Shown here in pieces: positions 584 to 18,255 of a DNA stretch of 64,000 bases. The translations under genes were made by a program, and so were the position numbers. The notes below the pieces were generated by a model that made no database searches, was not told the origin of the DNA, and saw nothing but the letters and a program-made list of their open reading frames with translations. Numbering within the stretch: the first letter of the stretch is position 1; each line of letters starts with the position of its first letter. Origin of the DNA: Aquimarina agarivorans (GTDB lineage Bacteria; Bacteroidota; Bacteroidia; Flavobacteriales; Flavobacteriaceae); NCBI RefSeq assembly GCF_000218485.1, contig NZ_AFPB01000142.1:1-64000 (forward strand), written 5' to 3'.

Positions 584-1663
584 ATGAAACAGTTTATAGT
601 ATCAGCACGCAAATACCGACCGCAACAATTTAAGGATGTTGTGGGGCAACAAGCTATTACCAATACATTACTTAATGCTATTGATAATAATCACTTAGCC
701 CAAGCCTTACTATTTACAGGACCGCGAGGTGTAGGGAAAACTAGTTGCGCGCGTATTTTGGCGCGTAAAATTAATGCTGATGATACTACTAACGATAATG
801 AAGATTTTGCCTTCAATATTTTTGAATTGGATGCCGCTTCAAACAACTCAGTAGATGATATTCGTAGTTTAATTGATCAAGTGCGAATACCACCTCAGGT
901 AGGAAAATACAAGGTATATATCATTGACGAGGTGCATATGCTTTCTACCTCGGCGTTTAACGCTTTTTTAAAAACATTAGAGGAGCCGCCTAAACACGCT
1001 ATTTTTATTCTGGCAACGACCGAAAAGCATAAAATTATTCCAACCATTTTATCGCGCTGTCAAATTTTTGATTTTAAACGAATTACCGTTGCTGATGCCA
1101 AAGCACATTTAGTTGAAATTTGTAAAACTGAAGGCATCACTGCCGATGAAGATGCCTTGCAAATAATTGCCCAAAAAGCAGACGGCGCTATGCGCGATGC
1201 ACTATCAATCTTTGATCGCGTAGTAAGTTATTGTGGTACAAATTTAACGCGACAAGCGGTTACTGAAAATTTGAATGTACTGGATTATGAAACTTATTTT
1301 CAAGTAACGGATCAAATTTTAAACAACAGTATTCCTGAATTAATGATTAGTCTTAATGAAATCATTACCAAAGGTTTTGATGCCCACCATTTTATTGCAG
1401 GTTTAGCGTCTCATTTTAGGGATTTATTGGTTTGTCAAAATCCCCAAACTATAAATTTACTCGAGGTAAGCCAACAAATAAAAGCTACTTATCATGAACA
1501 AGCGCAAAAAGCACCTGCTTCATTTTTAGTGGCTGCCATTGAACTTGCCAATACTTGTGACTTAAACTTTAAATCAAGCAAAAATCAACGCTTATTGGTA
1601 GAACTGTGCCTCATGAAATTAGCTTCATTAACGGCTACAAGTGAAAAAAAAAAGTGGATCTAG
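584..1663 (+). CDS. dnaX: DNA polymerase III gamma/tau subunit, N-terminal (gamma-like) part
   Basis: This is the clamp-loader ATPase that opens and loads the beta sliding clamp within the polymerase III holoenzyme. The AAA+ core is complete: Walker A GPRGVGKTS at residues 46-54, Walker B VYIIDEVH at 111-118 and the SRC motif at 157-159. The cysteine-rich zinc module that E. coli DnaX carries between Walker A and Walker B is absent and replaced by an acidic loop (about 64-77). I believe this is usual in flavobacteria. The frame closes after 359 codons at a TAG just beyond a 10-A run (1644-1653), and the rest of tau continues in another frame (1641-2312). As read, the gene gives a short gamma-like protein. 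Full-length tau needs one A fewer or two more. Start ATG at 584 fits the family N-terminus. miaE follows the tau end by 12 bp. Confidence 0.95.
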   Translation: MKQFIVSARKYRPQQFKDVVGQQAITNTLLNAIDNNHLAQALLFTGPRGVGKTSCARILARKINADDTTNDNEDFAFNIFELDAASNNSVDDIRSLIDQVRIPPQVGKYKVYIIDEVHMLSTSAFNAFLKTLEEPPKHAIFILATTEKHKIIPTILSRCQIFDFKRITVADAKAHLVEICKTEGITADEDALQIIAQKADGAMRDALSIFDRVVSYCGTNLTRQAVTENLNVLDYETYFQVTDQILNNSIPELMISLNEIITKGFDAHHFIAGLASHFRDLLVCQNPQTINLLEVSQQIKATYHEQAQKAPASFLVAAIELANTCDLNFKSSKNQRLLVELCLMKLASLTATSEKKKWI

Positions 1664-2312
1664 TATAATTTCATCTTCTTATTTCAGCACATCTTCTAAT
1701 ACTATTGCAGCCTCAAATACACCAAAAAGTAGTACTCCAACCCTTGCTAATCACACTGCTGTAGAAGTTACAAAATCGTCTACTACAGATGTTAATAATG
1801 AAAATACAACAGTAAATACCAAATCAAAACCTGATATTTCAATTGAAAACGCTGTAGGATCTGCATTATCTATAAAAGGAATTCAGCAAAAAAAAGCACT
1901 TAGTAAAAAAAGAAAAGTAATTGTAGAAGATCCTACAAAACTTCCGAAAACTCCTTTTACGGAAGCGCAGGCGTTAAAATTATGGAATACTTACGGTAAA
2001 CGTATGGACAAAAAGGGAGAACGAATTATTGGCTCCATGTTTGCCATGAACAAACCAAAGCTCAATGATAATTTTGAGCTTGTTCTGGAATTGCCTAACG
2101 AAACCATGCGCCTTGATATTGAAAATATTCAGACACCCTTACTTGCTTATATGGGTGAGGAGCTGAACAATTACAGTATTACCTTAAAAATAGTAGTCAA
2201 CGAAGCTGTAGCCGTAAAACATGCATTTACACCTCAGGACAAATACGATAAACTAAAAGAGAAAAATCATTTTATTGATAAATTAAGAGCTAAATTTGAT
2301 TTAGACCTGTAA
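1641..2312 (+). CDS. dnaX: DnaX tau-specific C-terminal part, out of frame with the N-terminal part
   Basis: This frame continues dnaX after the A10 run. Its first codons (GTG plus lysines) lie inside the upstream gene and are not a believable start. The protein begins with a Ser/Thr/Asn/Lys-rich linker (to about residue 95), then a folded C-terminal domain ending in an acidic-aromatic tail (KFDLDL), as expected for flavobacterial tau. Joining the frames requires a net change of -1 nt (A9) or +2 nt (A12). A -1 ribosomal shift would not reach this frame. So tau would come from transcriptional slippage, from +1 ribosomal frameshifting, or the run is miscounted in the assembly. I am sure it belongs to dnaX; the expression route is unresolved. 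Confidence 0.85.
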   Translation: MKKKSGSSIISSSYFSTSSNTIAASNTPKSSTPTLANHTAVEVTKSSTTDVNNENTTVNTKSKPDISIENAVGSALSIKGIQQKKALSKKRKVIVEDPTKLPKTPFTEAQALKLWNTYGKRMDKKGERIIGSMFAMNKPKLNDNFELVLELPNETMRLDIENIQTPLLAYMGEELNNYSITLKIVVNEAVAVKHAFTPQDKYDKLKEKNHFIDKLRAKFDLDL

Positions 2313-17175: not shown

Positions 17176-18255
17176 ATGAAAAAGATACTGGTAATTCAAA
17201 ATAAACGCATAGGCGATGTACTTATAGCTTCAGTGATTGCTCAAAATATCAAAAAAGTTCATCCCGATGCTAATGTTGATTTTCTAGTTTATGATTTCAC
17301 TACCGGAGTAATACAAAACAATCCATATATAAATCATATCATTGCTATTAATGAAAAGGAAACAAAACAGCTACCGAATTTAGTCAAACTCGCATTTACA
17401 ATTAGAAAAAAAAATTACGATATCATTTTTGATCCCTATGCAAAATTTCAAAGTAAATTTATTTGCTTGCTTTCGGGAGCAAATCAGCGTATTGGATTAG
17501 TAAAGCCTAATAAAAAATTACCTTTTAAATTTTATACTGATGTGGTACATTTACTTGAAGAAAAAAGTAATGTGTGCGGAAAATCTATTGAAGATAGGGT
17601 AAATATGGTCAGTTCCTTGTTTCCCATTCAAAAAAATAAAATTGATTATACGCCCAAAATATTCCTTACTGAAAAGGAAATAAATTACAATAAACTAGAT
17701 GGCTACAACCAGCCGTTTATTATGTTAGGAGTTTTAGGAAGTACGCCTCAAAAATCAATGCCTTATGACTATGTTACTGCTTTGATTGATTTTGTTACCG
17801 ATACTTTTCAAGTAAACGTACTGTTTAATTATGCACCTCATCAAAAAAAAGAAGCGCTAAAAATTTACGAGACCTGTAAAAATAAATCACAAATTGTTAT
17901 TGACATTTATGAAGATACAATTCGTGGTTTTATTAAGTTAATGAATAAATGCAGCTTGCTGATAGGTAACGAAGGTGGAAGCATTCACATTGCAAAAGCA
18001 TTAAACAAACCTACGTTTACTATTTTTTCACCTTACGTACACAAAGAGCATTGGGCAAGTTTTGAAGATGGCGTGTTGCACACATCCGTACATTTGATTG
18101 AGGAAAAACCACATTTATTTGGAGATGACTTAGGTTTTGAGAGTATGCGAAAAATAGAAAACGATCCAGTAGCTATGTATCGTGAACTTACACCTGAACT
18201 TATGATCCCTAAACTCAACCTTTTTTTACAACGCTATTTAAAACAAATTAAATGA
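17176..18255 (+). CDS. Glycosyltransferase family 9 (heptosyltransferase-like)
   Basis: GT9 enzymes add heptose (or a related sugar) to the LPS inner core. The N-terminus KKILVIQNKRIGDVLIASVI matches the family's RIGDxxxx motif, and the C-terminal nucleotide-sugar site GNEGGSIHIAKALNKP (about 262-277) replaces the more common GNDSGPMHLA. Length 359 aa is typical and it has no signal or membrane segment. The stop overlaps the ATG of the next gene (ATGA at 18252-18255), so the methyltransferase is translationally coupled. Confidence 0.88.
   Translation: MKKILVIQNKRIGDVLIASVIAQNIKKVHPDANVDFLVYDFTTGVIQNNPYINHIIAINEKETKQLPNLVKLAFTIRKKNYDIIFDPYAKFQSKFICLLSGANQRIGLVKPNKKLPFKFYTDVVHLLEEKSNVCGKSIEDRVNMVSSLFPIQKNKIDYTPKIFLTEKEINYNKLDGYNQPFIMLGVLGSTPQKSMPYDYVTALIDFVTDTFQVNVLFNYAPHQKKEALKIYETCKNKSQIVIDIYEDTIRGFIKLMNKCSLLIGNEGGSIHIAKALNKPTFTIFSPYVHKEHWASFEDGVLHTSVHLIEEKPHLFGDDLGFESMRKIENDPVAMYRELTPELMIPKLNLFLQRYLKQIK

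Follow-up and report, generated by a model that had tools for sequence, protein, structure and literature searches.

Two products, gamma and tau, are made from the dnaX gene of Thermus thermophilus by transcriptional slippage on a run of nine adenines (A9), as described in PMC1088944 and PMC5009743. In E. coli the mechanism described for this gene is programmed -1 ribosomal frameshifting from tau to gamma, assisted by a Shine-Dalgarno-like element and a downstream stem-loop (PMC5009743, PMC3711429). A third arrangement, with gamma and tau in two ORFs, was reported by Antonov et al. (2013) for 17 dnaX genes from 12 genera, nine of them with A10, and transcriptional realignment was suggested (PMC3711429). 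According to the same paper, mixed direction of the shift among orthologues is a mark of transcriptional realignment, whereas a ribosomal mechanism keeps the direction. Finally, slippage in an IS transposase of Roseiflexus is stimulated by a nascent-RNA stem-loop located directly upstream of the slip site (Penno 2015, as cited in PMC5009743).

Thus slippage in Thermus and two-ORF dnaX genes with A10 are already known from these sources. A literature search did not find the near-universality of the run in the family Flavobacteriaceae, the drift of the frame within a genus, or the hairpin abutting the run that are described below; the supplement of PMC3711429, which holds the species list, lay outside this search.

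The dnaX locus

The window is the whole analysed stretch of DNA, 64,000 nt from Aquimarina agarivorans, and it starts with dnaX. The features of the locus are as follows.

584..1663, plus strand: gamma form of DnaX, the AAA+ clamp-loader part, 359 aa, ending three codons past the run (ORF; Pfam, NCBIfam and PDB matches)
1614..1643, plus strand: site of the hairpin that abuts the run in most of the family, the window having no appreciable one (its 30-mer ranks at percentile 0.287 within the gene)
1641..2312, plus strand: tau-specific frame, offset by +1 from gamma and continuous with it in transcripts with 9 or 12 A (PRK14971 positions 407-613; dN/dS)
1644..1653, plus strand: A10 run at the gamma/tau junction, where RNA polymerase is proposed to slip (sequence; run at the same place in relatives)
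1648..1654, plus strand: zero-frame heptamer A_AAA_AAG, identical to the E. coli dnaX shift site; a -1 shift here leads to TAA 1666, not to tau (sequence)
1661..1663, plus strand: TAG closing gamma on the unslipped (A10) transcript (sequence)
1666..1668, plus strand: TAA at the end of the third frame, which is entered with an A11 transcript or by a -1 ribosomal shift and gives a 361-aa product (sequence)

The short form is encoded by the zero-frame ORF, which starts at ATG 584 and ends with GAA AAA AAA AAG TGG ATC TAG across the run; the run itself stands in the context ..ACAAGTG-A10-GTGGATCTAG... The first-pass annotation had described a dnaX gene split at A10, with gamma in the zero frame, its AAA+ part ending three codons past the run, and tau intact in another frame. 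The locus has exactly this structure, and a recount gives the same ten adenines. Conceptual translation of transcripts with 9, 10 and 11 A yields 575, 359 and 361 aa, respectively. Tau can be reached from a transcript with 9 or 12 A, or by a +1 or -2 ribosomal shift. The claims that a -1 ribosomal slip cannot reach tau, and that only A9 or A12 would join the frames, are therefore correct as well; with a true A11, tau would remain in a different frame from gamma.

Both parts match the same NCBIfam model, PRK14971 (614 positions), gamma at profile positions 1-369 and the tau part at 407-613. Each scores below the whole-protein cut-off of this model, since each is only a piece of the protein. The gamma part is above the cut-off of TIGR02397 (389.8 vs 250 bits), and its best sequence matches in PDB are E. 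coli-type gamma/tau chains (2.3e-57). The tau part has no match in a PDB sequence search up to E 1, and no Pfam family was found in it. An Rfam scan of positions 1400-1900 produced a single match, taken as chance. The split gene does not look like a broken one, since a single DnaX model matches both halves and purifying selection appears to act on the tau part (see below). Judged by its sequence, the window dnaX is a pair of overlapping ORFs, gamma and tau, joined only by recoding. The downstream neighbour at 2325-2906 resembles the tRNA hydroxylase MiaE (E 1.5e-28, 100 bits, below the model cut-off of 320).

The locus shares several properties with Thermus dnaX as described in the sources above: an A homopolymer at the gamma/tau junction (at least nine A/T) and stops soon after it in both non-tau frames. 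In Thermus slippage gives messages in all frames and two products from one gene, and the same would hold for the window. However, tau is in the zero frame in Thermus and gamma in the window, although tau is in frame 0 in 40 of 62 Aquimarina genomes; the run is A9 in Thermus and A10 in the window; and slippage was measured in Thermus and is proposed here on comparative grounds. The two-ORF genes in the paper of Antonov et al. are similar in that gamma and tau occupy ORFs in different frames, the junction carries poly-A, and recoding is needed for tau. However, all 17 are given there as -1 frameshifts, whereas the window, in the convention as read, needs the other direction: loss of one nucleotide or gain of two. 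Seventeen of the 62 Aquimarina genomes again need the direction opposite to that of the window. With E. coli dnaX the window shares the gene, the two products and the zero-frame A_AAA_AAG, but neither a Shine-Dalgarno-like element nor a downstream stem-loop was found in the window, and -1 misses tau.

Conserved run and drifting frame in Aquimarina

Among named records the closest to the window dnaX is that of Aquimarina agarilytica ZC1, with 94% over gamma. The genus set consisted of 66 genomes. Two of them (G037 and G038) have no dnaX match (best 1e-13 or weaker), and in one (G029) the sequence ends inside the gene. The remaining 63 loci were read, and one of these (L071) was left out as it contains N at the junction, so that 62 genomes including the window were compared. 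The first-pass annotation had proposed a comparison of run lengths in close relatives. In this comparison a run of 9-14 A is located at the same place, the gamma/tau junction, in all 62 genomes. It is A10 in 58 of them, the window included, A11 in two, A12 in one and A14 in one.

The frame of tau, on the other hand, takes all three values: 0 in 40 genomes, +1 in five (including the window) and +2 in 17. The first-pass annotation considered it a reversed order that the direct product is the short protein. This holds for the window but is not a peculiarity of it, as gamma is the zero-frame product in 22 of the 62 genomes, and two-ORF dnaX genes were described in 2013 (PMC3711429). In all 62 genomes exactly one of the three phases of the run leads to a tau-length product, and the other two lead to gamma.

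A tree was constructed by a quick search from the first 348 codons of dnaX of the 62 genomes and six outgroups. Many of its branches are weak. It implies at least ten changes of frame against three changes of run length; the starred branches alone force four, five and two changes for frames 0, 2 and 1, respectively. The window, with tau in frame +1, groups in a starred clade with three other genomes, all of which have tau in frame +2. All four have A10, and the window lacks one base just after the run.

Flavobacteriaceae and other Bacteroidota

The family was sampled by one genome per genus, in total 149 genomes, 148 of them with dnaX. A run of 9-13 A occurs at the junction in 147 of the 148 (A10 in 127, A11 in 15, A9 in four, A13 in one); the exception, L326, has only A6. 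Tau was called in frame 0 in 123 genomes, in frame +2 in 19 and in frame +1 in five, one of the +1 calls (L332) being unreliable due to stops in the called frame; in one genome (L169) tau was not found at the contig end. One phase of the run gives tau and two give gamma in 145 of 148 genomes, the three rows off this pattern being L169 (contig cut), L326 (A6 only) and L332 (stops in the called tau frame). Only five of the 143 branches of the family tree are starred.

Outside the family the loci were hand-picked, mostly one or few per family. Runs are present in 40 of 44 loci of the order (9-12 A), in 47 of 57 from other orders of the class, and in 9 of 26 from other classes of the phylum, although some of those in distant or very AT-rich genomes may be due to chance. 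Both the order and the class samples contain tau in all three frames.

Several loci deviate. In L326, L360 and L365 the dnaX frame ends near the gamma length and tau is called in another frame, and there is no run of at least nine A (A6, A8 and A6 nearby, respectively). Other recoding, loss, or assembly error are possible readings. Two genomes of about 0.6 Mb from the same order (L371 and L372) have short dnaX frames, and A11 runs are located downstream of these; the runs may be rescue sites, or chance given how AT-rich the DNA is.

Constraint on junction codons, stops and tau

Of the two lysine codons at the junction, one is AAA in all 145 family rows counted and the other in all 146, whereas AAA accounts for 54-87% in the 11 other conserved lysine columns of gamma. 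L326 and L332, which have no usable run, were left out of this count, and thus the 100% is partly due to the choice of rows.

Stops after the run are also in excess. Within 24 nt of the end of the run, each of the two non-tau frames meets a stop in 62 of 62 Aquimarina genomes, with 15.2 expected (range 8-24), and in 139 of 145 family genomes (L169, L326 and L332 not counted), with 32.3 expected (range 20-43). The expectation was obtained by synonymous resampling of the tau codons. One frame deserves separate mention: the frame that is one A short, never entered by a -1 ribosomal shift, is closed in 119 of the 123 family genomes with in-frame tau, with 43.4 expected (range 32-59). The resampling takes genomes as independent and hence all these ranges are too narrow, yet the effect is large.

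The tau part has dN/dS of 0.05-0.15 in seven of eight pairs and an undefined ratio in one; dS is saturated in most pairs, and the ratios are rough. The tau part of the window itself has dN/dS of 0.08-0.11 against three relatives, also with saturated dS. These values point to purifying selection on the tau part.

Candidate mechanism

It is highly likely that the window dnaX produces gamma and tau by programmed transcriptional slippage, as Thermus dnaX does. RNA polymerase would lose or gain A as it transcribes the ten template-strand T, and the mRNA would be a mixture with A9, A10, A11 and so on. Messages with A10 or A11 would encode gamma (359 or 361 aa) and those with A9 or A12 would encode tau (575 aa for A9), both proteins resulting from ordinary translation of messages in all phases. 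The frame written in DNA would matter little, because the message mixture would hold all three phases. What selection would then maintain is a run length near ten A together with stops in the two non-tau frames, and the frame in the DNA would be left to drift. The slipping of the polymerase, its frequency and the making of both proteins are what we infer here.

Slippage had already been named in the first-pass annotation as a route to tau. Among the mechanisms considered it seems to be the best supported, because the run has been retained in relatives whose tau lies in any of the three frames. The RNA-DNA hybrid has 9-10 bp (PMC5009743). A run of ten adenines would fill it, and this may be why the run length is kept. 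Some observations weigh against slippage: the counts of frame changes rest on trees with many weak branches, three of the 148 family rows do not fit, two other genes of the assembly look split at A10 or A11 runs, and the window has no counterpart of the family hairpin that might help slippage.

An alternative mechanism would be ribosomal: a +1 (or -2) shift at the A run in the window, and a -1 shift in relatives with tau in frame +2. It would be consistent with the E. coli heptamer A_AAA_AAG in the zero frame of the window, and -1 would indeed yield tau in the +2 relatives. However, sister species would then need different shifts, -1 in some, +1 or -2 in others, and -1 or +1 for producing gamma from the in-frame genes, and in the window -1 gives only the 361-aa gamma. 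The frame never entered by -1 is closed far above chance. The 60 nt downstream of the run show no structure in the 62 Aquimarina genomes (mean z -0.62, z below -2 in 16%; fold of -1.7 kcal/mol in the window). In the E. coli system, as described in PMC4363877, ribosome sliding is slight on A9 and A10 but robust on A11. Moreover, ribosomal shifting at prfB is reported to be inefficient in Flavobacterium johnsoniae (PMC12421855). Ribosomal shifting is thus improbable. Its specific version, a -1 frameshift with a downstream stem-loop, is unsupported, as it reaches the wrong frame and the stem-loop was not found.

It is slightly less probable still that the run was miscounted in sequencing or assembly, the true run being A9 (or A12) and dnaX of this strain having an uninterrupted frame. 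The assembly is a draft, in 182 contigs, and two more of its genes look split at A10 or A11 runs. However, A10 is found in 58 of 62 genomes of the genus, and tau is also out of frame in Aquimarina assemblies of one or two contigs (G011, G024 and G033). The three nearest relatives all have tau out of frame too, and the single base by which the window differs from them is beside the run, not in it. The first-pass annotation had allowed for a miscount as an alternative; it is not needed for explaining the locus, and the conserved run and the closed frames would stand even if the window were miscounted.

A chance run or low-complexity artefact was rejected, as long A/T runs are scarce and the dnaX run is exactly where tau and gamma part. 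The genome of the window (4.07 Mb) contains 24 distinct A/T runs of at least ten (34 overlapping matches merged), and in the window itself A9 matches are depleted, 7 vs 32.8 in dinucleotide shuffles. One A9 run of the window lies inside an ORF at 17406-17414, and the frame is intact.

Two other loci of the same genome were noted. In L460:1154-2433 (contig C24) a group-1 glycosyltransferase is seemingly split, with frames of 119 and 311 aa meeting at A10; slippage, sequencing error and real mutation are the possible readings. On the minus strand of L473:1-3001 (contig C147) an aminotransferase class-III frame and a condensation-domain frame, of 500 and at least 515 aa, meet at A11, and they perhaps form one large biosynthetic protein. 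With these two genes, indels in homopolymers, real or due to sequencing, look not rare in this assembly.

Phase variation or decay, in which replication slippage alters the genomic run length and tau is either turned off or on its way to loss, is extremely improbable: long homopolymers are hypermutable, and A11, A12 and A14 do occur in the genus, but the length is nearly constant, frame changes exceed length changes ten to three, the tau part is constrained as judged by dN/dS, and tau is essential in E. coli.

Candidate hairpin upstream of the run

In most of the family the proposed slippage site is preceded by a candidate hairpin. The 30 nt before the run fold remarkably well, with a median percentile of 0.018 among 30-mers of the same gene, and in 105 of 147 family genomes they are at or below 0.05. 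A stem of at least 7 bp ending at most 2 nt from the run is present in 99 of 147 (7.0% at control positions; 18.4 expected by synonymous resampling), and one of at least 8 bp in 82 of 147 (2.5% and 6.5, respectively). A common form is CTCTATCA-loop-TGATGGAG directly 5' of A10, and its arms occur in 68 of 147 family genomes.

Covariation is clear in the 120 of 147 family rows that carry no indels (79 distinct). In these, 78% of cells are paired, compared to 34-53% for slid pairings. Cells with double changes number 37, against 15.5 (largest 25) in shuffled and 10-16 in slid versions; the number of pairs with a double change is four, no higher than in slid versions (4-6). In Aquimarina, 27 rows with one extra loop codon keep the stem, also with clear covariation (89% paired vs about 59-61% at most for slid pairings), and 23 rows with a short loop show no distinct covariation signal (66% vs 65%).

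No such hairpin abuts the run in the window, where the longest stem at the run has 4 bp. Outside the family, stems of at least 7 bp are not enriched in the order (5 of 40, control 8.1%), are at best weakly enriched in the class set (5 of 31, control 7.6%), and are absent from the phylum set (0 of 25, control 6.5%). Within the genus such stems occur in 35 of 40 genomes with tau in frame 0 and in 4 of 22 others (raw counts). On the tree, however, this link comes down to only four independent pairs with support (2.5 in agreement with the raw counts, 0.0 opposed), and in the family no link between hairpin and frame is visible.

The geometry is that of the Roseiflexus IS element as described in PMC5009743, with a hairpin immediately 5' of the slippery run in most of the family. 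However, the slip sequence there is T5C5, the gene is a different one, and the window gene has no hairpin.

The GGAG before the run was also considered as a Shine-Dalgarno element. This was dropped as the main reading, since GGAG is the 3' arm of the family hairpin; the rare use of Shine-Dalgarno sequences in F. johnsoniae, reported in PMC8710568, was also counted against it.

One possibility, to which we give about an even chance, is that the gamma/tau switch of Flavobacteriaceae is a terminator-like device inside a coding sequence. The hairpin ends where A10 begins. At the moment the polymerase finishes the run, the hybrid would consist entirely of weak rA-dT pairs and the hairpin would be leaving the exit channel. 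The A10-filled hybrid and the exiting hairpin together would cause slipping in both directions and set the tau:gamma ratio. The DNA frame of an essential gene would then be free to drift, because the message pool would hold all three phases. Lineages of the window type would have moved the frame and lost the hairpin, keeping both proteins, and the run without hairpin would be older, across much of Bacteroidota.

Implications

The natural variants in frame, run length and hairpin are many, and they offer material for measuring the control of slippage. If transcriptional slippage is the correct reading, it is a mistake for annotation pipelines to label dnaX genes of this kind as truncated or frameshifted. 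Over evolution, the frame in which an essential gene is written could then be nearly neutral, and a large group of bacteria would make both forms of an essential replication protein by deliberate error of RNA polymerase.
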